This document shows, piece after piece, positions 1 to 24,600 of a stretch of 64,000 nucleotides of DNA. Made by a program: the position numbers and the translations under genes. Numbering within the stretch: position 1 is the first letter of the stretch; each line of letters starts with the position of its first letter. Location of the stretch: contig CALMUP010000009.1 in the NCBI GenBank assembly GCA_937872895.1, forward strand, positions 248,001 to 312,000, read 5' to 3'. Origin of the DNA: an uncultured Verrucomicrobiota bacterium. Lineage in GTDB: Bacteria; Verrucomicrobiota; Kiritimatiellia; CAIVKH01. The notes below the pieces were generated by a model. That model searched no databases and was not told where the DNA came from. It worked only from the letters and a program-made list of their open reading frames with translations.

Positions 1-882
1 GCATTCGATGCGATTTACCTCGGGGCGATCGGCCATGTGGACGTGAAGCCGGGCATCCTGGAGAAGGGTGTGCTGCTGAAGATTCGCTTCGAACTCGACC
101 AGTACATCAACCTGCGCCCGGTGAAACTGTATCCGGGCGTGGAGTGTCCGATCAAGAACAAGGGACCGAAAGAGATCGACTACTGCTGCGTGCGCGAGAA
201 CAGCGGGGGCTTGTACACCGGCGTGGGCGGCATTTCCCGCATCGGCACGAAGGACGAGGTGGCCACCCAGTCGATGGTGTACACCTACGATCAGGTGCAG
301 CGCTGCCTGCGCTTCGCCTTCGAGTATGCCCGCAAGTACGGCAAGAAGGCGCGGGGTGTCGGCCCGAACAACACGCTGGCGTTGATCGGCAAGACCAACG
401 TGCTCACCTATGTGTTCGACCTGTGGAACCGTGTGTTCAACGAGATGGGCGACAAGGAATTTCCGGATGTGAAGCGCGAGTATTACCACGTGGACGCGAC
501 CTGTCTGTACATGATCTCGAGCCCGGAGATGTTCGATGTGATGGTGACCGAGAACATGTTCGGCGATATCGTGACCGACCTCGCCGCGATCACCCAGGGC
601 GGCCTGGGCATTGCCTCCGGTGGCAACATCAATCCGGAAGGCGTGAGCATGTTCGAGCCGATTGGTGGCACCGCCCCGATGTGGACCGGTAAAAATGCGA
701 TCAACCCGCTGGCGGCGATTGGTGCGGGGGCGATGATGTTGAAGTACCTCGGCCAGGAGGCTGCGGGCAACAAGATCGAGGCGGCCATCGCCGCGACCAC
801 CCCGAAGATGAAGAGCCAGCTGGCGAACCAGATGGGCTTCACCACCACGCAGGTGGGCGATCTCGTGGCGGGCGCGGTTTGA
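1..882 (+). CDS. leuB: 3-isopropylmalate dehydrogenase (5' end cut off by window)
   Basis: This is the C-terminal 293 residues of an NAD-dependent beta-decarboxylating dehydrogenase; the reading frame is open from base 1, so the start lies upstream. The family includes LeuB (oxidative decarboxylation of 3-isopropylmalate in leucine synthesis), isocitrate dehydrogenase and tartrate dehydrogenase. Visible family motifs are VTENMFGDIVTDLAA, the metal/substrate-binding Asp-containing block, and FEPIGGTAP followed by NPLAAIGAGAMML, the adenine-binding region. LeuB is preferred because aspartate-semialdehyde dehydrogenase follows on the same strand, a pairing known from other bacteria, but isocitrate- or tartrate-type specificity cannot be excluded from the fragment. 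The gene ends in TGA and is followed by a 103-base spacer containing a dispersed repeat. Confidence 0.82.
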   Translation, partial: AFDAIYLGAIGHVDVKPGILEKGVLLKIRFELDQYINLRPVKLYPGVECPIKNKGPKEIDYCCVRENSGGLYTGVGGISRIGTKDEVATQSMVYTYDQVQRCLRFAFEYARKYGKKARGVGPNNTLALIGKTNVLTYVFDLWNRVFNEMGDKEFPDVKREYYHVDATCLYMISSPEMFDVMVTENMFGDIVTDLAAITQGGLGIASGGNINPEGVSMFEPIGGTAPMWTGKNAINPLAAIGAGAMMLKYLGQEAAGNKIEAAIAATTPKMKSQLANQMGFTTTQVGDLVAGAV

Positions 883-954
883 GGTGTCGGGTGTCGGGTT
901 TCTGGTGTCGGGAAAATACGGATTACCGAAACCTGAACACTGAAACCCGAAACC
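883..954. repeat. Dispersed GTGTCGGGTTTC-type repeat between leuB and asd
   Basis: The leuB-asd spacer begins with iterations of GGTGTCGGG and GGGTTTC. It ends with an approximate inverted copy (GAAACCCGAAACC at about 942-954). The same word, GGTGTCGGGTTTCGGGTGTC, occurs in the two long repeats at 24101-24203 and 24491-24600, so this is a dispersed intergenic repeat rather than a gene-specific site. No strong terminator with a T-tract is visible, so leuB and asd may be co-transcribed. Confidence 0.6.
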
Positions 955-985
955 AAAAGAGTTTGAATAGGCAAAGGTAAAGAAC

Positions 986-1990
986 ATGAAGCAATACAAC
1001 GTATGTGTCGTCGGAATCGGAGCGGTCGGGACGGAGATGGTGCGGTTATTGAAGGCCCGGAAGTTCCCGATGAAGAGCCTGACCATCCTGGCCCGCAGCG
1101 AGCGCATCGAGGAGATCGATGGCGAGAAGATCCAGGTCAAGGTGGCGGCACCGGAGGCGTTCGAGGGCATGGACTTCGCGTTCTTTGCCGGCACCGAAGG
1201 CGCGAAGGGTGCTTCGCAGACCCTCGGGTGGGAAGCGGTGAAGCGCGGGTGCGTGGTGATCGACAACGGCGATGACTTCCGCATGGACGAGCGTGTTCCG
1301 CTGGTGATCCCCGAGATCAATCCGCAGGCTCTGAAAAGCCACCAGGGCCTGATCGCGAATCCGAATTGCAGCACGATTATCGCGCTGATGCCACTGGCAC
1401 CCCTGCATCAGGCGGCGACGATCAAGCGGATCGTGGCCAGCACCTACCAGGCGGTGTCGGGCACCGGCGCCCCGGCGGTGAAGGAACTGGACCAGCAGGT
1501 GCGTGCATGGGCGGCCAACCAGCCATTGCCCCGCGAGGTCTATCCGCACCAGATCGCGTTCAACGTGTTGCCGTCGGTCGGTTCGTTCAAGGACGATTCG
1601 GGCGAAAGCACCGAGGAAATCAAGATGCGCAAGGAGACCCACAAGATCCTGGGCGACGACTCGATCCGGGTGGGCAACACCTGCGTGCGCGTGCCGGTGT
1701 TCAACGGCCACAGCATCTCCATCAACGTGGAATTCGAGAAGCCGCTCACCCCGGCCCAGGCCCGCGACCTGCTCGCGAAGGCCCGGGGCGTGAAGGTGGT
1801 CGATGATCCGAAAAACGCGGTGTACCCGATGCCGTTGCAGGCTTCGGGCAACTACGACGTGCTGGTCGGCCGGATCCGCAAGGACCAGAGCTGTGACAAC
1901 GGGCTGGTGTTGTGGTGCGCCGGCGACAACATCTGGAAGGGTGCGGCGCAGAACGCGATCCAGATCGCCGAGGAGCTGATCAAGGGTTGA
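986..1990 (+). CDS. asd: Aspartate-semialdehyde dehydrogenase
   Basis: 334 residues, the usual length. The enzyme reduces aspartyl phosphate to aspartate semialdehyde with NADPH in the lysine, threonine and methionine pathway (and diaminopimelate for the cell wall). The N-terminal nucleotide-binding loop is VVGIGAVGTEMV (residues 8-19). The catalytic Cys is C128 in NPNCSTI, followed by the conserved QAVSGTG block (154-160). The ATG start matches the conserved N-terminus. It follows leuB on the same strand, separated by a repeat-bearing spacer, and is followed by a good intrinsic terminator, so transcription of the pair probably ends there. Confidence 0.95.
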   Translation: MKQYNVCVVGIGAVGTEMVRLLKARKFPMKSLTILARSERIEEIDGEKIQVKVAAPEAFEGMDFAFFAGTEGAKGASQTLGWEAVKRGCVVIDNGDDFRMDERVPLVIPEINPQALKSHQGLIANPNCSTIIALMPLAPLHQAATIKRIVASTYQAVSGTGAPAVKELDQQVRAWAANQPLPREVYPHQIAFNVLPSVGSFKDDSGESTEEIKMRKETHKILGDDSIRVGNTCVRVPVFNGHSISINVEFEKPLTPAQARDLLAKARGVKVVDDPKNAVYPMPLQASGNYDVLVGRIRKDQSCDNGLVLWCAGDNIWKGAAQNAIQIAEELIKG

Positions 1991-2012
1991 TCTGACGCGG
2001 TGTAGGCATGGC

Positions 2013-2053
2013 AACGCCCGCCTTGATGGGAACATCGGGGCGGGCGTTTTCTT
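2013..2053 (+). terminator. Intrinsic terminator after asd
   Basis: A perfect 10-bp stem, AACGCCCGCC at 2013-2022 pairing with GGCGGGCGTT at 2039-2048, with a 16-base loop and a following T-rich stretch (TTTTCTTTTCC). It sits between convergent asd and the minus-strand epimerase gene. The T-tract is on the plus strand, so it mainly serves asd. Confidence 0.85.
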
Positions 2054-2083
2054 TTCCGGCTTCCGGTACGTGCTGGCGAAGGG

Positions 2084-3139
2084 CTAGAAGAACTTCTTGA
2101 TCAGGTGCAAGGCGCCCTGGGCCCACGGGGCGCGGTGGTTGATGCCGGTGCCGCCGGCGCTGAAGGTGTGCCGGTGATCGAGGTACCAGCGGTAATTGCG
2201 GAGCAGTGCATCGATGTTCGAGAACTTGGGCGCAAAGCCGAGCTTGGCCTTGGCCTTGTCGATCGAGACGAACGATTCCTTGCCGGCCGTTTCGTACACC
2301 CACTTATACACCGGGGACAATTTCAGCATCTCAAGGAAGCGAAGCGCCCAGATCGCCGGAGCTTCGGGAACGGGGATGATGCGCTTGCCGAAACCGGCGG
2401 CGTCCAGCACGGCCTGGAAATCGGTTTTCGGGGTGCCGAATTGTTCCGCGCCGATGTTGAAGGTGTCGCTGGTCACTGCCGGATCGAGGGTGGCGCATAG
2501 CCAGATCGCATCGCACAGGTCCTCAACGTCAAGGTACTGGTAGGGATTGTTGCCACTACCCAGCACGGGGAAATTGCGGCCATCGCTGGCCCATTCGTAC
2601 AGCAGGGCGAAGATGCCGAGGCGCTCCGGGCCGATGAAGGACTTGGGGCGGATGACGGGAACGCAGAGGCCCTTCGTACGGTAGTCCTCGCACATTTTTT
2701 CGGCGGTGACCTTGGCTTCTCCATACGGTCCGACGCCGTCGAGTTTGTCGGTCTCCAGCAAGGGGTGGTGATCCGGTATGCCATACACGGCGGTGGAGGA
2801 GATATGGATGAAGCGCGTCACTCCGGCGCGCTTCGATTCCTCGAGCATGATCCGGGTGCCTTCGATGTCGGTCGAGTAGATGTCCTGCGGTTTATACAGG
2901 GGCAGGGCGGCGGCGGCATGGACCACGATGTCCACGCCTTCGAGCGCCTTGCGCACATCGGCCACGTTGCGGATATCGCCCTGGATTTCCAGAACCTGGT
3001 TGCGCACATCCGGATAGTCGAACGGAACGATGTCGAGGGAGGTGACGGCCTGGCCCTTGGCGAGCAGGTAGCGGGCGAGGTTGATGCCCATGAAGCCGGC
3101 ACCGCCGGTGATCAGGTAACGTTGGGGCGAGGAGGGCAT
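2084..3139 (-). CDS. NAD-dependent epimerase/dehydratase (extended SDR)
   Basis: 351 residues of an extended short-chain dehydrogenase/reductase. The N-terminal Rossmann motif is TGGAGFMG (residues 11-18), followed by the acidic residue of the second strand ([11 protein letters not shown]). The catalytic motif is YGEAK (YxxxK) preceded by HISSTAVYG, as in NDP-sugar epimerases and related dehydrogenases. The substrate cannot be assigned; nucleotide sugars or hydroxysteroid-like substrates are the usual ones. It is the last gene of a minus-strand group with a 53-residue lipoprotein, a 43-residue membrane protein and a coiled-coil membrane protein upstream. This hints at an envelope role, but the 60-base gap before it could also hold its own promoter. 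Confidence 0.88.
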
Positions 3140-12921: not shown

Positions 12922-14409
12922 CTATTCCTCGTAGTCCTCGCCGTCGCCACCCGCGTCGTCGTAGGACTCTTCCCCGTCTCCGCCCTCGTCCTCGTAAAAC
13001 TCCTCCTCACCGCCGCCCTCATCCTCCATCGACTCATCTGAAGACGCATCCATCTCTTCGTCATACTCCTCGTAGCCGGCTTCATCCATGCCTTCGTCGC
13101 CTTCCGCTTCCATGTCCTCTTCGTAATCCGCGGCGGATTCCTCATCGAATTCCGGATCGCCCTCGGCCGCTTCGTCCATACCCTCCTCGAACGCCTCGTC
13201 CTCGTACACGTCCTCGACATCAACGAGGTAGAGGTCGCTCTCCTCGCCGGGATTTTCCTCCTGCCACTCGGCGATGACCTCCTCGTAGTCGAAATCCTCC
13301 ATCGACTCCCATTCCTCCGCCTCGGCCAACGCCGCGTACTGGAGGTAGGTATCGTCGGAGGTTTCTTCGTATTCGACGGTGGACTCCTCCCACCAGGTGA
13401 GCTCGACATCCGCGTAATCCTCGACCGAATACGGGTTGATCACGAACGTGACCCCGCGTCCCCCGTCGGTCACCGGCTTGTCGTCGTTGACCCAGGTTTC
13501 CTCCGGATTTTCCAATTCGACGGCCGGGACAAACACCCAGCTGTCGCCGGCATTGAATTCGGGGTTCATCAGGTAGTTGTAGGGCATGTAGCAATACCCC
13601 TTGTCGCCCCATTTCGGGCCCCACGAATTGCGCACGATAAACACCTGCTCCGCGTCAGAATAGCCCACGGCCGTCATGGCATGGCCGCCGTGCGAGGAGC
13701 GGCCGACGTCCTCGGGGCTGGGCATCGGGACCACGCCGCCACGCTGGTTGGCCTGGTCGAAGGATTCAAACAGCAGGCAACCGAACACGATGGGGTAGCC
13801 GGAGGCGAGGGCTTGTTTCCAGGCCTGCAGATCAAGCGGAACCCGGGCCATTTCCGTGATTTTGAACTGGGCGGCCTCCGCGTAGGCGTCGCGGTCGGGT
13901 TTCTTCAACAGCAAGGGTTTTTCAAACGGCCAGCTGACCTCCGAGCAGGCACCGAAATCCCGGAGCCCCTCCATGGCCAGTTGGATCACGCTGCCCGCAT
14001 CCTTGTCCTGGTCGCCGCTGCGCCAGCGCGCGTTGTAGTACAGGAACAACCGGCTCACATCGTAGTCCTGCTTGGTGGTGCGGCGGATCCAGTACTCGTA
14101 CGATCCGGCGAGGGCGTTGGCCACGCACGAACTCGTCTGTCCCTGGTCCTCGATCGCGGTCATCATGCCGCGCAGGTCGACCTTCTTGGGCAGCTTCGCG
14201 TTGGCGATTTTGTCGGATGCCTTGAATGTCTTCGCGTCCGGCGCCGCCTTCATCGCCACATACCCTTTGGCCGCGTAGGAGTTTCCCTTGTTGTCGGTGG
14301 AGGTGATCACCGCGTTCTTGTCGTCGTTCGCGGCGGCGTGGAACGGTGCGGTGAGGAGCAGGGCGACGCACGCCACGGCGTGGCCAGCCAGGGAGGCGAT
14401 GTGCTTCAT
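12922..14409 (-). CDS. Papain-like cysteine protease (C1A) with a long acidic tail
   Basis: 495 residues. The signal peptide is residues 1-27 (ASLAGHAVACVALLLT then HAAA). A C1A catalytic domain spans about 73-310: EDQGQTSSC (oxyanion Gln89, catalytic Cys95), HGGHAM (His243) and VRNSWGPKWGDKG (Asn261), so the active site is complete. The last 168 residues (328-495) contain 79 Asp/Glu and no Lys, Arg or His, with repeated Tyr, Gly and Met; this tail is not part of the protease fold. Secreted or periplasmic. The open frame continues upstream of the ATG, but those bases belong to the beta-barrel gene in another frame. The gene has its own 235-base upstream region. Confidence 0.88.
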   Translation of the reverse strand: MKHIASLAGHAVACVALLLTAPFHAAANDDKNAVITSTDNKGNSYAAKGYVAMKAAPDAKTFKASDKIANAKLPKKVDLRGMMTAIEDQGQTSSCVANALAGSYEYWIRRTTKQDYDVSRLFLYYNARWRSGDQDKDAGSVIQLAMEGLRDFGACSEVSWPFEKPLLLKKPDRDAYAEAAQFKITEMARVPLDLQAWKQALASGYPIVFGCLLFESFDQANQRGGVVPMPSPEDVGRSSHGGHAMTAVGYSDAEQVFIVRNSWGPKWGDKGYCYMPYNYLMNPEFNAGDSWVFVPAVELENPEETWVNDDKPVTDGGRGVTFVINPYSVEDYADVELTWWEESTVEYEETSDDTYLQYAALAEAEEWESMEDFDYEEVIAEWQEENPGEESDLYLVDVEDVYEDEAFEEGMDEAAEGDPEFDEESAADYEEDMEAEGDEGMDEAGYEEYDEEMDASSDESMEDEGGGEEEFYEDEGGDGEESYDDAGGDGEDYEE

Positions 14410-14600
14410 ACGGACAACTCCTGAAGGGTTGTTGAACTTGAATATAGTTATATCGATGATCGCGTTGACGGCAATATCCGATTCCATTTGTTGCGACCCG
14501 GTTTTGCACCGGCAAGGAATGGACCGCGTACCGGTCCGGTGCAGGCGTCGCCTCCCGTGCGCTGCCCGTCCGGGGCCCTGTGGGGACGATGGGCCACCGG

Positions 14601-17053: not shown

Positions 17054-17419
17054 TCAGCCCAACTTCGCACGAATTCCGAGATTTTCAGCGACTTTCATGA
17101 GGCGTTTATCTTTTGTCCATAGTTGGCATGAACTCATGGAGCATGAGGCCAGAAGATGAATGTCAATCAATCCCAATCCCTTGCCGAACAATCGATGCTT
17201 CTCAATGAAAAATAGAACTTCATCATCTGAAACCCGGTCAAGAGGCGGAAGTGCGTGGAGGAGGGCGATGATTTCCCTCCGTTGTCGCAGGTTGCCGCAT
17301 GATAGCTCTCCGATGATAAAAGGGTGACAAAGCACTTCACCATCGTTAAGCAGGTTTGTGAGTGCTCGACTTCCTTCACGCAAATGGTCGATCCAGATCG
17401 AGGTGTCGACGAGAATCAC
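17054..17419 (-). CDS. VapC-type PIN-domain toxin (ribonuclease)
   Basis: 121 residues. The PIN nuclease fold has its acidic residues in place: D5 (LVDTSIW), E38 (IIGELS), D86 (GLIDIHLL) and D104 (WTKDKRL). VapC toxins cut specific tRNA or rRNA sites in a Mg-dependent way. The start is GTG directly abutting the TAA of vapB, so the two are translated as a pair. All four acidic residues are present, so it is probably active when free of antitoxin. Confidence 0.92.
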   Translation of the reverse strand: MILVDTSIWIDHLREGSRALTNLLNDGEVLCHPFIIGELSCGNLRQRREIIALLHALPPLDRVSDDEVLFFIEKHRLFGKGLGLIDIHLLASCSMSSCQLWTKDKRLMKVAENLGIRAKLG

Positions 17420-17611
17420 TTACATGCTCCTGCGACGAGGAATAGGCGCTATCTTTTTCTCGGTGCCACCAAGTTTAGCCAATCTCGCGGCGCTTGCCCT
17501 GGCTATAAGGGCTTCGAGGCCTAAATGAACGAGGGCGGTTTTTTCTTTTACTCCCGTGAGCGCTGAAGCTCTCGACAGGATGTCATCTTTAAGGATTAAT
17601 GTAGTTCTCAT
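17420..17611 (-). CDS. VapB-type antitoxin
   Basis: 63 residues with the typical start RTTLILKDDILSRASALTG (ribbon-helix-helix DNA-binding segment), then KEKTALVHLGLEALIARASAARLAKLGG and a basic tail. It pairs with and blocks the PIN toxin encoded immediately downstream. It sits just after a TTGACA-bearing promoter and a large inverted repeat that covers its start codon, which suggests autorepression and a very short or absent leader. Confidence 0.88.
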   Translation of the reverse strand: MRTTLILKDDILSRASALTGVKEKTALVHLGLEALIARASAARLAKLGGTEKKIAPIPRRRSM

Positions 17612-17647
17612 GCATATCAATATGGTATAATTATATGCATTTGTCAA
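17610..17647 (-). promoter_or_regulatory. vapBC promoter with overlapping inverted-repeat operator
   Basis: On the minus strand, TTGACA (17642-17647) is followed after 17 bases by CATATT as a -10. Two perfect 8-bp arms, ATGCATAT (17610-17617) and ATATGCAT (17633-17640), lie 15 bases apart and flank the -10. The downstream arm overlaps the vapB start codon. VapB dimers usually bind such paired half-sites, so this is the likely autoregulatory operator. Confidence 0.65.
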
Positions 17648-18160
17648 GGGCGAACAATGTATTGAAAAGTTTCTTGTGATCCTGCGGTGTTTTGCGGGTG
17701 CGGTCACAACCTCCTGAAAGTCAATCGGTAGGATAGCGTTTTTTTTCGCGGGCGGCCAGGGGGTAGGCGGGGGGGGGGGGGTCGATGTTTCTTGCGAAAA
17801 TCGGCCTTGCACCTGCGACCTATGCATAGCCCATGTAGTCCCGAGCATAGGAGCATGCAATCGATCCGTTTTCCATGATACCGTTCCCTTCAGCGCTGTT
17901 ACCTGCCTCCAGGAAATGGCCGCGAAAGGAAGGGCCGGACCCGCCCGGAGCATGCCATTCGGGTCAGACCTTTACGATGCAAGGACGATGCTCGTGCATC
18001 GATGAAGGGTGTCCGGCTAGGTGGTGCGGTTATGTGTGTAGTCACGGGAGGGCTTGCGGCATCAGCGTGCGACAGCCGACCCTTCGTCGCTACCCTTCAT
18101 CGGATACCCTTCGTCGACCCGCTTCGTCCCCTCCAGCTAACCACACACGCCGCGCGTTGG
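17648..18160. other. 513-base gap with a G13 tract and short tandem repeats
   Basis: No gene is supported. Visible features are a run of 13 G at 17769-17781 and three near-copies of ACCCTTCRTCG spaced about 13-14 bases apart at 18079-18116. An inverted copy (CGATGAAGGGT) lies at 18000-18010. The gap separates the vapBC upstream region from the 3' end of the unrecognised gene at 18161. Confidence 0.6.
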
Positions 18161-19090
18161 TCACCCGGCGCTGGAGCTGGGTTCGGGGATGAGTTGGCCG
18201 AAGCCGCCGGCGTCGTTGCGTTTGAAGCCGGATTGCTTGAAGTCGATGGTGAAGACCGACTCGGGGAAGCGGAACAGGGCGAGCGCCGGATCGGTGAAGG
18301 CGCTGCCGTAGATCTGGAGAAAGCCGTCCTTGCGCAGGTCGCGGAAGTAGGCGCACAGGTCCTCGCGCGGCTTGTCGTTCGGCCCCGGCACGACGCAGAC
18401 GATCTGCTCGATCCCGTTTTTCCGCAAGGTCTCCGGCGCGGGCAGGATGGAGTCGTCGAGGTAGTAGCGGTTGTCGAATTCCCGGACCTTGGCCGGCCGC
18501 TCGCCGAGGCGGTTGCGGTCGCAGACCCACAGCGGCGGCGAGGCCGGGGTCAGGTATTTTCGCAGGTCCGAGACATGGGCGGCGTAGCGCAGCAACTGGG
18601 CGAGCACGATCTCGGTCTTGATGAGTCCAGCCTGGTGCGGCCAGTTGTCGAAGGTGCAAACCGGCTGGAATCCACCGGCGATGAAACGGACCGCGGCTGC
18701 GACCGACCGCGCGCCGGGGAGGTCGAGGATGACCCACGACCGCTGCTCCGCCCAGTCGCGCCCGAGCGGACGGTCCACCAGCGCGCCGCCGAGGTGGCCG
18801 TTGCCCTCGACCGATTTGACCATGTCCGGCGCGGTCGGGCCTATCTTGGACGCCAGCACCGTGTTCAACGCGGCGAACAGCGGTACACAGTGGTACGGCT
18901 CCCACGGACTGCCCGGCGGCGGACCCCAGACGGCAAAGAGTTTTTCCGTGTCGTTGTAGTCCTTCCACCAGGTCGAGTCCATGGCATCGCGGTCATTCGG
19001 ATTCCCGATGGCCAGTGAAACGCTGGTCGGTCGGTAGTTGAAGCGGAGACGTCCGATCAGGTTAAGCAGGTTCGACAACGGTTGCCACAT
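18161..19090 (-). CDS. Unrecognised protein of the DUF350/ATP-grasp cassette
   Basis: 309 residues from an ATG with GAGG six bases upstream; an ATG at 19102 would add four. No signal peptide, no membrane segment and no motif I can name. Conserved-looking blocks are SPWEPYHCVPLFAAL, FQPVCTFDNWPHQ, SPPLWVCDRNRLGE and FDNRYYLDDSILPAPETL, with many Trp, Asp and Arg, suggesting a soluble enzyme or ligand-binding protein. It overlaps the upstream ATP-grasp gene by 29 bases, so it is translationally tied to it. Context says it works with the ligase and the DUF350-like membrane protein; the function itself is not known to me. Confidence 0.75.
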   Translation of the reverse strand: MWQPLSNLLNLIGRLRFNYRPTSVSLAIGNPNDRDAMDSTWWKDYNDTEKLFAVWGPPPGSPWEPYHCVPLFAALNTVLASKIGPTAPDMVKSVEGNGHLGGALVDRPLGRDWAEQRSWVILDLPGARSVAAAVRFIAGGFQPVCTFDNWPHQAGLIKTEIVLAQLLRYAAHVSDLRKYLTPASPPLWVCDRNRLGERPAKVREFDNRYYLDDSILPAPETLRKNGIEQIVCVVPGPNDKPREDLCAYFRDLRKDGFLQIYGSAFTDPALALFRFPESVFTIDFKQSGFKRNDAGGFGQLIPEPSSSAG

Positions 19091-20246
19091 GGTAGGCCTC
19101 ATGGTTGATGAAAGGTTGGTGGGCGGCGCGGCTGTAGTAGCCGGCGAAGCGGTGGTTGACCAGGTACACGCCGAGGGACGGGTAGAAGGGCGTGCCGCCG
19201 TCCTGCAGCGGCTCGACGTCGAACCGCTCCTGGAGCAGCCATTCGCGGGCGTTCTTGCGGGCGAGGGTCAGGGTCTCGTTCCAGACCGATTCCTTGGCGA
19301 GGTTGCCCATGACCACGGTATCGCCCATGCGCCCGAAGGCGTTCTTCAGGACCCAGCGGCTGCGGTCGGCGATGGTGTCCACCTCCTCGAGGCGCAGGCT
19401 GGCCGGGGTGTGGGCGGCGATGAAGGCGCGGTCGTCGGCGTTGAGCAGGTCCGGGTCGTTCCACACGGTGTAGAGGCGTTTGGATTGGCGGATCAGGCGG
19501 CGCAGCGGGTTCATCATCGGCAGGCGCGGGGCGAGCCAACGCCAGGTGCCGAGGTTGGCCAGCCACTGGTACCACTCGCCGGGGTAGAAGCGGAAGGCGG
19601 CATCGACGCGGCGGCCGAAGCAGCGCGGTCCGCGCCAGCTCCGTTCCAGGTGGGCCGGGGCGGCGAGTTCGGTGGTGTGACCGGCTTCGTGCAGCCAGCG
19701 TTGGACGATCAACATGTGCTGGAGATCCTCGGCATAGCCGGTGGCGTAGAGCAGGGCGATGTGGGGGAGGTCGCGCAGGGCCTCGACCACCGCGGTGCGG
19801 AGGCGTCCCTCGAAGCGCAGGTGCGGCAGGGCGGGGCCGAGCAGTTCCGGGATACCGTCGGCCTCGTTGAAACCGCCGGGGACGTCCTCGTTGAACTCGG
19901 ACACCAGCCAGCGGCCATCGGGGGTGCAGAAGACATCGTAGCGGGCGAGTTGGAGCGGTGGGCCGGGTTCGGCGGGGAGCAGGGGGAGCAGCACGGCGGG
20001 GATGCCGAGACGGGTCAGCAGGTCGGGGCGTTCGAGCAGGGCGGATTCGAGGCGGCCGAGGATCGCGTCGAAGCGCAGGCACAGCGCGGTCACCTCGTCG
20101 TGTTCGGCGCGGGACAGTACGACCGAATCGGTCAGGACGAGACGGCGGCCGCAGGCATCGACATCCCATTTGTGGTAGCGGAAGCAGAGCGTATTCAGCA
20201 GGTCCGCGACGTCCGGTTCGGACAGCGGCCACCGTTCCGCCCTCAT
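19062..20246 (-). CDS. Glutathionylspermidine synthase-like ATP-grasp ligase
   Basis: 394 residues, the size of stand-alone GSP-synthase-like proteins such as E. coli YjfC/YgiC. Recognisable blocks are RYDVFCTPDGRWLVSEFNED (the acidic E-x-N-x-D substrate/metal site), GGFNEADGIPELL, and the ATP-grasp region RSRWVLKNAFGRMGDTVVMG corresponding to the KPxxGREG loop. The family forms amide bonds between a carboxylate and an amine using ATP. The start overlaps the stop of the DUF350-like gene by ATGA. No amidase domain is present. The substrate is unknown; a polyamine or peptide conjugate is possible. Confidence 0.82.
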   Translation of the reverse strand: MRAERWPLSEPDVADLLNTLCFRYHKWDVDACGRRLVLTDSVVLSRAEHDEVTALCLRFDAILGRLESALLERPDLLTRLGIPAVLLPLLPAEPGPPLQLARYDVFCTPDGRWLVSEFNEDVPGGFNEADGIPELLGPALPHLRFEGRLRTAVVEALRDLPHIALLYATGYAEDLQHMLIVQRWLHEAGHTTELAAPAHLERSWRGPRCFGRRVDAAFRFYPGEWYQWLANLGTWRWLAPRLPMMNPLRRLIRQSKRLYTVWNDPDLLNADDRAFIAAHTPASLRLEEVDTIADRSRWVLKNAFGRMGDTVVMGNLAKESVWNETLTLARKNAREWLLQERFDVEPLQDGGTPFYPSLGVYLVNHRFAGYYSRAAHQPFINHEAYHVATVVEPA

Positions 20247-21064
20247 ATCGTCCATCCCCAGGCGGGCAGCAGGTGCTGGTTCACGTAGGAGAAGCCGATG
20301 GTGGTGGCGATGTAGAGCACGGCCTCGACGACCGACATCGCTTTCGGGCGGGCGTTGGCGTTGCGGTTGAAAACGAGGCCGGCGATCTCGTGCACGACGA
20401 GCATGGCGGCGATCGCGCCGGTGGTGAGCAGGCCGCTGCGCCAGCCGTGGAAGTCGCCGGCGACCGATTCCATCAGGATCCAGCCGGTGCTCAACAGGTA
20501 GAGGGAAAAGCCGAGGGCTTCGCGCGGGTTGCGGACCTGGCGGATGCGGCGCACGGTGCCGCCGGTTTCGCGGAGCCGGTACAGCCAGGTGGCGATGCAC
20601 AGGCTGATCCAGCCGGCGAGGAAGAAGCCCATCGGGATCCACCAGCCGCCTTCGCCTTCGCCGTCGGGATCGGCTTCGCCCCACAGCGAGCCGCCGAAGA
20701 TCAGGCCGGTGGCGAGGATGAACGACGCGATGAGCAGGCCGGCGGCGGGGTTGTTGCGTTCCAGCGTGTCCACGGAATGCCGCATGCCGGTGCGACCGGC
20801 TCCGCCGAAGCCGAAGGCATGCAGCACGGCGAAGCCGAGCACGAGGTAGAACAGGCGGTAGATGCCGACCACGCTCGGGTCGGCGTGGGTATAGAGAACG
20901 TAGGTGATCCAGGCCATGGCGGCGAGCAGGCCGAGGCGCACGGTGCCTTCGGCCGAGGCGCGGCGGGACATGACCGGGTGGCGGGCGGTGAAGAGGTGCC
21001 CGATGACGCAGACCACGGAGATCAGCGAGGCGATGACCAGGACGGCGATTTCATCGGAGGACAT
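20243..21064 (-). CDS. DUF350-like multi-pass membrane protein
   Basis: 273 residues with about seven or eight hydrophobic helices. The stretch ERNNPAAGLLIASFILATGLIFGGS matches the pattern of the DUF350 (YjfL/UPF0719) family, where Asn-x-Ala-Ala precedes a Gly-rich helix. In E. coli the DUF350 gene yjfL lies near the GSP-synthase-like gene yjfC, and the same partnership is seen here with a 4-base overlap. A periplasmic or cytoplasmic acidic loop (GEADPDGEGEGG) lies mid-protein. Probably an inner-membrane partner of the ligase. Family assignment is from pattern and context and is not certain. Confidence 0.68.
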   Translation of the reverse strand: MSSDEIAVLVIASLISVVCVIGHLFTARHPVMSRRASAEGTVRLGLLAAMAWITYVLYTHADPSVVGIYRLFYLVLGFAVLHAFGFGGAGRTGMRHSVDTLERNNPAAGLLIASFILATGLIFGGSLWGEADPDGEGEGGWWIPMGFFLAGWISLCIATWLYRLRETGGTVRRIRQVRNPREALGFSLYLLSTGWILMESVAGDFHGWRSGLLTTGAIAAMLVVHEIAGLVFNRNANARPKAMSVVEAVLYIATTIGFSYVNQHLLPAWGWTI

Positions 21065-24051: not shown

Positions 24052-24100
24052 GGGTAGAGCCTAGTCCGCGACGAACATGATGTAAACAAAATCAGGGAGG

Positions 24101-24203
24101 GAGGAAGAATGGTTGATGGTTAATGGTTGATGGGGATGGGAGGGAGAATGGTTGATGGTGATGGGGGTGTCGGGTTTCGGGTGTCGGGGAAGCGGGGACA
24201 GAC
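24101..24203. repeat. Long intergenic repeat, copy 1
   Basis: About 103 bases made of GGTTGATGGT/TAATGGTTGATGG iterations followed by GGTGTCGGGTTTCGGGTGTC and GGGGACAGAC. It is nearly identical to the copy at 24491-24600 in the same orientation; the two flank a pair of 78-bp double-hairpin elements. A short relative lies at 883-954. Confidence 0.85.
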
Positions 24204-24239
24204 AAGAGGAAAAAGGGATTGATACCATTGCGCTCTGTC

Positions 24240-24317
24240 TGTAGGCGGGATCGCTGATCCCGCTGAGCTCACGCGGGATTCCGTATCGAAGCACCGCGAT
24301 CACCGATCGCGGCTACA
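24240..24317. repeat. 78-bp double-hairpin element, copy A
   Basis: Bounded by TGTAG (24240-24244) and CTACA (24313-24317), which are inverted repeats. Inside are two perfect hairpins: GCGGGATC-GCT-GATCCCGC (24245-24263) and CCGCGATC-ACC-GATCGCGG (24294-24312). The form resembles bacterial REP/BIME or small MITE-like elements. A second copy of identical length lies at 24400-24477. Confidence 0.85.
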
Positions 24318-24399
24318 GGAAGGCTGGAGGTGCAGATAGCTGAACAGCGCGGTGCCCTCACCGAGTCCGGAACGAGATTCGGCTCCATGGCCCTTCGCC

Positions 24400-24477
24400 T
24401 GTAGGCGGGATCGCTGATCCCGCTGAGGCTTATCGGGATCTCGCAACGAACGGCCGCGATCACCGATCGCGGCTACA
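24400..24477. repeat. 78-bp double-hairpin element, copy B
   Basis: Same length, same terminal TGTAG/CTACA and the same two hairpins (24405-24423 and 24454-24472) as copy A, 160 bases downstream in direct orientation. The 30 bases between the hairpins differ more than the hairpins, which implies the stems are what is conserved. Confidence 0.85.
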
Positions 24478-24490
24478 GGGTGGGCCTGGG

Positions 24491-24600
24491 GAGGAAGAAT
24501 GGTTGATGGTTAATGGTTGATGGGGATGGGAGGAAGAATGGGTGATGGTTGATGGGAATGGGGGTGTCGGGTTTCGGGTGTCGGGAAAGCGGGGACAGAC
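24491..24600. repeat. Long intergenic repeat, copy 2
   Basis: Near-identical direct repeat of 24101-24203 (small insertions and substitutions), again ending in GGGTTTCGGGTGTC and GGGGACAGAC. It ends 15 bases before the stop of the minus-strand deacetylase gene. Confidence 0.85.

Follow-up and report, generated by a model that had tools for sequence, protein, structure and literature searches.

A conserved GGFG tail on a new protein family marks a candidate protein substrate for amidase-less glutathionylspermidine-synthase-like ligases

The stretch of DNA analysed here, 64,000 nucleotides from an uncultured Verrucomicrobiota bacterium (GenBank contig CALMUP010000009.1; hereafter the window), contains at 18161-21064 a cassette of three overlapping minus-strand genes, which lie exactly as first described in an initial annotation made from the sequence alone. 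The first gene (20243-21064, minus strand) encodes a 273-residue protein of the DUF350 family of membrane proteins, which matches PF03994 in three stretches at 35.6 bits against a cut-off of 26; the family suggests a location at the membrane. The second (19062-20246, minus strand) encodes a 394-residue ATP-grasp ligase resembling glutathionylspermidine synthase, and the third (18161-19090, minus strand) a protein of 309 residues, here called X, with an alpha/beta body and a C-terminal tail, which we propose below as the substrate of the ligase. The DUF350 and ligase genes share a 4-nucleotide ATGA overlap (20243-20246), and the ligase and X genes overlap by 29 nucleotides (19062-19090) when X is started at the ATG at 19090, from which the protein begins MWQ and lines up with its relatives. 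The longest open reading frame (ORF) starts at 19102 and gives 313 residues; residue numbering in X follows this longer start.

The ligase matches the GSP_synth family (PF03738) at 42.3 bits (cut-off 29.3) over residues 19-390, and all 394 residues are synthetase domain with no amidase domain, as had been recognised initially. A profile of 28 such ligases, YgiC included, matches YgiC (7uk8), YjfC (7uk6), trypanothione synthetase and the bifunctional enzyme GspSA in the PDB. The structure predicted by AlphaFold2 (AF2) has a predicted local distance difference test score (pLDDT) of 93.5 and a predicted template modelling score (pTM) of 0.92, and the best Foldseek matches to this model are YjfC (7uk6, E 9.8e-19) and YgiC (7uk8, E 3.4e-17, and 7uka), followed by GspSA (2io7, 3.7e-16). 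In an alignment with GspSA, residues R316, D318, E330, N332, K498, K533 and R598 of that enzyme correspond to R102, D104, E117, N119, K256, K301 and R373 of the window ligase, and the acidic pair E391/E392 to E173/D174; we take these GspSA residues to have ATP/Mg, transition-state and spermidine roles. D121 corresponds to GspSA D334, and the catalytic stretch R102-x-D104 ... E117-x-N119-x-D121 (19884-19943, minus strand) is invariant in 12 aligned ligases. By sequence and predicted fold, the window protein is a member of the GSP_synth ligases. GspSA activates the Gly carboxylate of glutathione and joins an amine to it, and by analogy we infer that the window ligase may ligate an amine to a peptide C-terminus.

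DUF350 and GSP-synthase-like genes are also neighbours in the E. coli yjf cluster, as the initial annotation had pointed out. It had further called the function of that cluster unresolved, which no longer holds entirely for YjfC or for its relative YgiC, both of which carry the RefSeq name 'peptide--spermidine ligase'. This naming follows Pederick et al., 2023, a study cited for bacterial peptidylpolyamine synthetases in PMC12568646. The window ligase is about 18% identical to YgiC and lies on a separate branch of the ligase tree, in which an X side (26 loci, support 93/83) is divided from a DUF1190/RGGFG side (100/99).

X gave nothing above noise against Pfam, NCBIfam, PADLOC or PDB sequences; no characterised unrelated family was matched, and with no match in PADLOC a role as a defence protein was rejected. 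AF2 predicts a well-folded alpha/beta body (mean pLDDT 84.8, pTM 0.82) that has no clear fold match in the PDB: Foldseek returned none at E 0.001 or better, and the best VIA-align score (Z 3.5, Dot1L) was tied with unrelated rows, which we read as a common alpha/beta arrangement and not as a known fold. Six polar residues of the body are invariant (D195, R198, D210, N211, R212 and D248). The N-terminus, MWQPLSNLLNLIGRLRF, read by eye without a predictor, contains no lipobox. X is a new, apparently cytoplasmic family.

When one genome per species was scanned, 13 relatives of X (36-71% identity) turned up, in Verrucomicrobia, Planctomycetes, Gemmatimonadetes, a 'Deltaproteobacterium' (Myxococcota) and one metagenome-assembled genome labelled Trueperaceae. 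In all but two of these, the ligase gene immediately precedes that of X and usually overlaps it; the exceptions are L013, where the end of a ligase gene alone stands beside X, and L004, where the two genes are unlinked and the ligase is found elsewhere in the genome. DUF350 precedes the ligase in nearly all of these loci where the contig reaches, and in most X-type loci overall. Among 195 Verrucomicrobiota genomes, three carry X and eight the ligase, X always standing immediately downstream of a ligase. X is present in 17 of 244 planctomycete genomes; 13 of the 17 have a PF03738 match, three more have a ligase beside X that Pfam missed, and one holds a remnant of 59 codons that covers the tail. 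On the X side of the ligase tree, X is missing in one small subgroup only (L044-L046). The gene order DUF350-ligase-X is repeated in four to five phyla, a recurrence that exceeds chance. This accords with the earlier suggestion that the third protein is a new component of such cassettes: X matches no family and looks obligate, adjoining the ligase wherever the contig allows, except for L004 with its unlinked genes, L013 with its truncated ligase, and the planctomycete tail remnant.

Some planctomycete loci have features of their own. The tail remnant (L071, 7182-7358, plus strand) is a 59-codon frame that encodes the X tail only, KPSMFKLGWYRFLAAMGLKRNSTGGFGGRIPEPSQSSGFG, with neither an X body nor a ligase within 14.5 kb; it is either a remnant or a stand-alone tail peptide. 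The ligase ORFs of L044-L046, which lack a neighbouring X or GGFG-tailed gene, all carry a conserved extension at the C-terminus, RRGGGVVPVLELGGRSKTGPIEAARPRRRRTTG. A long version of X is directly followed in L043 (4530-5078, minus strand), and also in L041, L042, L047 and L048, by a conserved gene of at least about 180 amino acids with no Pfam match.

The tail of X, RNDAGGFGQLIPEPSSSAG (18164-18220, minus strand), is the proposed recognition element for the ligase, with the C-terminal Gly as the attachment site. X proteins were aligned in sets of 14 and then 22 (X and 21 relatives). In near relatives the tail reads R-x-x-x-GGFG-x-x-(I/V)P-(E/D)-P-S-S-S-x-G, ending in Gly. GGFG and P306 are invariant in the 22 proteins, which are otherwise about 25% identical, and among windows of 8 residues conservation peaks at RNDAGGFG, where column entropy averages 0.60 bits, compared with 1.83 across all positions. 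The blocks FDNWPHQ, WVCDRNRLGE and FDNRYYLDDS, singled out in the initial annotation, do belong to conserved parts of X; the most conserved stretch is the GGFG tail, which had gone unmentioned. The last two dozen residues mostly have pLDDT below 60 and are predicted to be disordered. The tail is predicted to be disordered and yet evolves more slowly than the body, which is what a tail that is recognised or modified would look like. Across the genome of the window the extended pattern GGFG-x-x-hydrophobic-P-E, searched at the DNA level, occurs once, in X, and no other protein carries it.

The same kind of tail is found on other proteins encoded beside this ligase family. We collected 51 ligase loci, of which 12 came from the X search or the window itself and are circular for this comparison, and 39 were found by the ligase alone; a tail was scored when a touching same-strand ORF had GG[FYW]G within 45 residues of its C-terminus. 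Such an ORF is present at 37 of the 51 loci. GG[FYW]G ends occur in 37 of 160 touching ORFs and in 9 of the 2337 remaining ORFs (Fisher p about 7e-38, which serves as a guide rather than a measure, since related loci are treated as independent and the background includes non-gene ORFs), and one of the nine is an X protein missed by the adjacency rule. At the loci found by the ligase alone, 25 of 39 have a tail-bearing touching gene, in which GG[FYW]G is followed by 7-25 Ser/Gly-rich residues. The 37 tails end in Gly (28), Ser (7), Thr (1) or His (1), and Gly ends 13% of ORFs at large. In 18 of the 37 there is no Asp or Glu after GGFG; the one carboxylate that every tail has is that of the C-terminus, likewise the group that GspSA activates in glutathione, and attachment to an acidic side chain was rejected as a general rule.

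The bodies that carry these tails are unrelated to one another. At five other GSP_synth loci in Verrucomicrobiota the touching protein is unrelated to X and ends in RGGFG plus 8-12 small residues; E. coli YgiB and YjfM have the same kind of tail (YjfM ends SRGGYGRSSSARGHWGG), and further tail-bearing partners occur in Gemmatimonadota and at plasmid-borne loci of Vibrio, Sulfitobacter, Pseudomonas, Asticcacaulis, Acinetobacter, Indioceanicola and Arthrobacter. Near misses strengthen the pattern: a Rhizobium DUF1190 protein ending RQGFGGRSSFSFGG, a Trichormus neighbour ending SGFGSFRSGGSSS, and the GG[ST]W ends of a planctomycete branch described below. With tails removed, the partners fall into five phmmer clusters, and hhalign finds no relation (highest probability 2.1%) among the tail-less X, DUF1190, Verrucomicrobial and Gemmatimonadota groups. 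A Pfam name is available for the DUF1190 cluster alone, with a sub-threshold DUF1190 match in one Verrucomicrobial partner (L023). In nine DUF1190 proteins, the lipobox Leu and Cys, the R-G-x-G motif and the final Gly are the invariant columns. Descent of X as a DUF1190 counterpart was rejected (no Pfam match; hhalign probability 0.2% without tails), and X had no match to DUF2491 (YjfK) in the Pfam scan, the sole comparison made. X resembles the DUF1190 partners YgiB and YjfM solely in having a GG[FYW]G tail that ends in Gly beside a GSP_synth ligase. Common tails on unrelated bodies beside one enzyme suggest that the tail is what the ligase sees. One RGGFG-tailed partner, on an Arthrobacter plasmid (L057, 4368-4874, plus strand), bears the annotation tRNA-dihydrouridine synthase, which Pfam does not support and which is probably wrong.

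We lean towards a reading in which X is the dedicated protein substrate of the ligase and the cassette is a system for amidating a protein C-terminus, with the tail as both docking and attachment site. The ligase would activate a protein's C-terminal carboxylate with ATP and then join it to an amine, as GspSA does with glutathione and YgiC/YjfC with peptides and spermidine. The GGFG core of the disordered tail would dock in the ligase, the terminal Gly of X would receive the amine, and the DUF350 protein would probably tie ligase and X to the membrane. This proposal builds on the observed gene order, ligase family and catalytic residues, on the predicted disorder and the conservation of the tail, and on the occurrence of the tail on unrelated partners; from these we infer the tail as substrate, its C-terminal carboxylate as the site and a polyamine-like amine as donor.

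Several points weigh against C-terminal amidation of X. GspSA D610 is not kept in the window ligase. Not every tail ends in Gly; no recognisable tail neighbour is present at 5 of the 39 ligase-found loci (L044-L046, L059 and L061); and in the planctomycete branch of L041-L043, L047 and L048 the downstream gene encodes a long X relative mostly ending in GG[ST]W and a Ser/Gly tail. The supply of the amine is a further point. AdoMet decarboxylase (PF02675) was not found in the genome of the window or in 13 more X-carrying genomes, and a large membrane-fused protein gives the only spermine-synthase-like match in the window's genome; an nspC match there is below cut-off, looks like diaminopimelate decarboxylase and was set aside. 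PF02675 is present, by contrast, in two genomes of Gemmatimonadota that have the other type of ligase. Its absence from the 14 X-carrying genomes indicates that the usual spermidine route is missing, so spermidine from that pathway is probably not the donor; possible donors are polyamines that are taken up or made in another way, other diamines, or an amino acid.

The same absence favours a variant of the proposal, compatible with its core, in which the group that the ligase attaches to the X C-terminus is an amino acid or peptide, or X becomes cross-linked to some other molecule that carries an amine. Related ATP-grasp-derived enzymes, the peptide aminoacyl-tRNA ligases (PEARLs), do extend peptide C-termini (PMC11117183), but the equivalent of the GspSA acidic pair E391/E392 is kept in the window ligase and the closest characterised enzymes use spermidine (PMC12568646), and we regard this variant as doubtful. 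A different explanation would make the tail a docking or scaffold signal only: the ligase would produce a free small amine conjugate, and X would be an enzyme or regulator of that pathway, held by its tail beside the ligase or the DUF350 protein. The invariant polar residues of the X body resemble an active or binding site, and GspSA itself yields a free metabolite. However, DUF1190 and other partners have the tail without the X body, which means that the function they have in common cannot lie in the body, and mere docking would not need a small terminal residue, such as the Gly that is invariant in the DUF1190 set; this makes docking alone unlikely. We give very little credence to the tails being coincidental low complexity, that is, Gly/Ser/Phe-rich ends with no meaning for the ligase. 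Many proteins do end in RGG- or FG-rich stretches, the motif is short and the background ORFs include many non-genes, but against this stand the enrichment in touching ORFs, the invariance of GGFG among otherwise divergent X proteins and the single occurrence of the longer motif in the whole genome of the window.

Taken together, X is probably a protein substrate of a peptide-amine ligase. More tentatively, GSP_synth ligases may define a widespread tagging code, in which GG[FYW]G tails on unrelated proteins in many phyla would mark the C-terminal carboxylate for amine ligation; X would then be a new and apparently cytoplasmic family of substrates, and Planctomycetes, Verrucomicrobia and their relatives would use an amine that is not spermidine. 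If true, this would be a dedicated bacterial modification of protein C-termini by an amine, with its own recognition tail; to our knowledge, post-translational marking of this kind has rarely been described in bacteria. The natural substrates of amidase-less GSP-synthase-like ligases (YgiC, YjfC and kin) are not established in the literature searched. The tail on unrelated neighbours names a candidate substrate in most ligase-carrying genomes and predicts the attachment site to one residue, and the question can be tested in E. coli as well as with the genes of the window. No link between GGFG and this ligase family was found in the literature searched, which did not extend to Pederick et al., 2023; if that study already used DUF1190 C-termini as substrate, the mechanism would be stronger and the novelty confined to X and the spread of the tail.

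A kinase, an L,D-transpeptidase and accA lie upstream of the cassette, all confirmed in a Pfam scan, and from them the initial annotation had argued for an envelope function. That argument is weak because, beyond the nearest relative (L002), the three genes are not retained, and the cassettes of other phyla have other neighbours. In one Gemmatimonadota locus (L006) an M48 peptidase gene lies upstream, with similar long genes in L008 and L010, and in L007 an outer-membrane efflux (OEP) gene (279-2771, plus strand) precedes the cassette, recalling tolC-ygiBC of E. coli. Ravi et al., 2024 link ligase-DUF350-DUF1190 operons to PspA and envelope stress (PMC11237479). This placement makes a membrane-stress role for the cassette a fair guess.

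Elsewhere in the window, a VapBC-type toxin-antitoxin pair lies directly downstream of X (17054-17953, minus strand), with a PIN domain at 17054-17419 and a VapB antitoxin at 17420-17953. The intergenic region upstream of the kinase contains direct repeats (24099-24578), two 95-nucleotide copies (81% identical) and two 90-nucleotide copies (86% identical), rich in GATGGTTAATGG-like units. The gene at 12922-14424 (minus strand) encodes a cysteine protease of the papain family that is extended at its C-terminus by a long and very acidic segment. An Rfam scan matched no RNA element in the window, and promoters and terminators there were not above chance level.

Among known systems, the closest are ygiBC (the DUF1190 lipoprotein YgiB with YgiC) and yjfIJKLMC of E. 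coli. Like the cassette, both have a GSP_synth ligase with no amidase domain and a touching partner that ends in RGGFG or RGGYG and a Ser/Gly-rich tail with a final Gly, and yjf also has DUF350. In contrast, X is not a DUF1190 protein, has an unrelated body and lacks a lipobox. Whereas yjf and PspA-type operons include DUF2170, PspA and DUF2491 genes, none of these is found beside the window ligase, whose neighbours are accA, the L,D-transpeptidase and the kinase upstream and the VapBC-type genes downstream. The third PspA-linked group of Ravi et al., 2024, which comprises an ATP-grasp ligase, DUF350, DUF1190, DUF2491, a K+ channel and CesT/Tir-PspA, shares ligase and DUF350 with the cassette; in the portion of that study available, X is not among the partners named and a C-terminal tail is not mentioned (PMC11237479). 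GspSA (PDB 2io7-2iob, 3o98) has the synthetase fold and the ATP/Mg residues of the window ligase, which differs in lacking the N-terminal amidase domain and in its proposed substrate, a protein tail and not glutathione. PEARLs, like the proposed reaction, carry out an ATP-dependent condensation at a peptide C-terminus (PMC11117183), but they belong to another family and are tRNA-dependent, so that the likeness is one of mechanism only. Ligase-partner pairs of the ygiBC/yjfMC type are already known; what is new is the X family and a tail common to unrelated partners across phyla.

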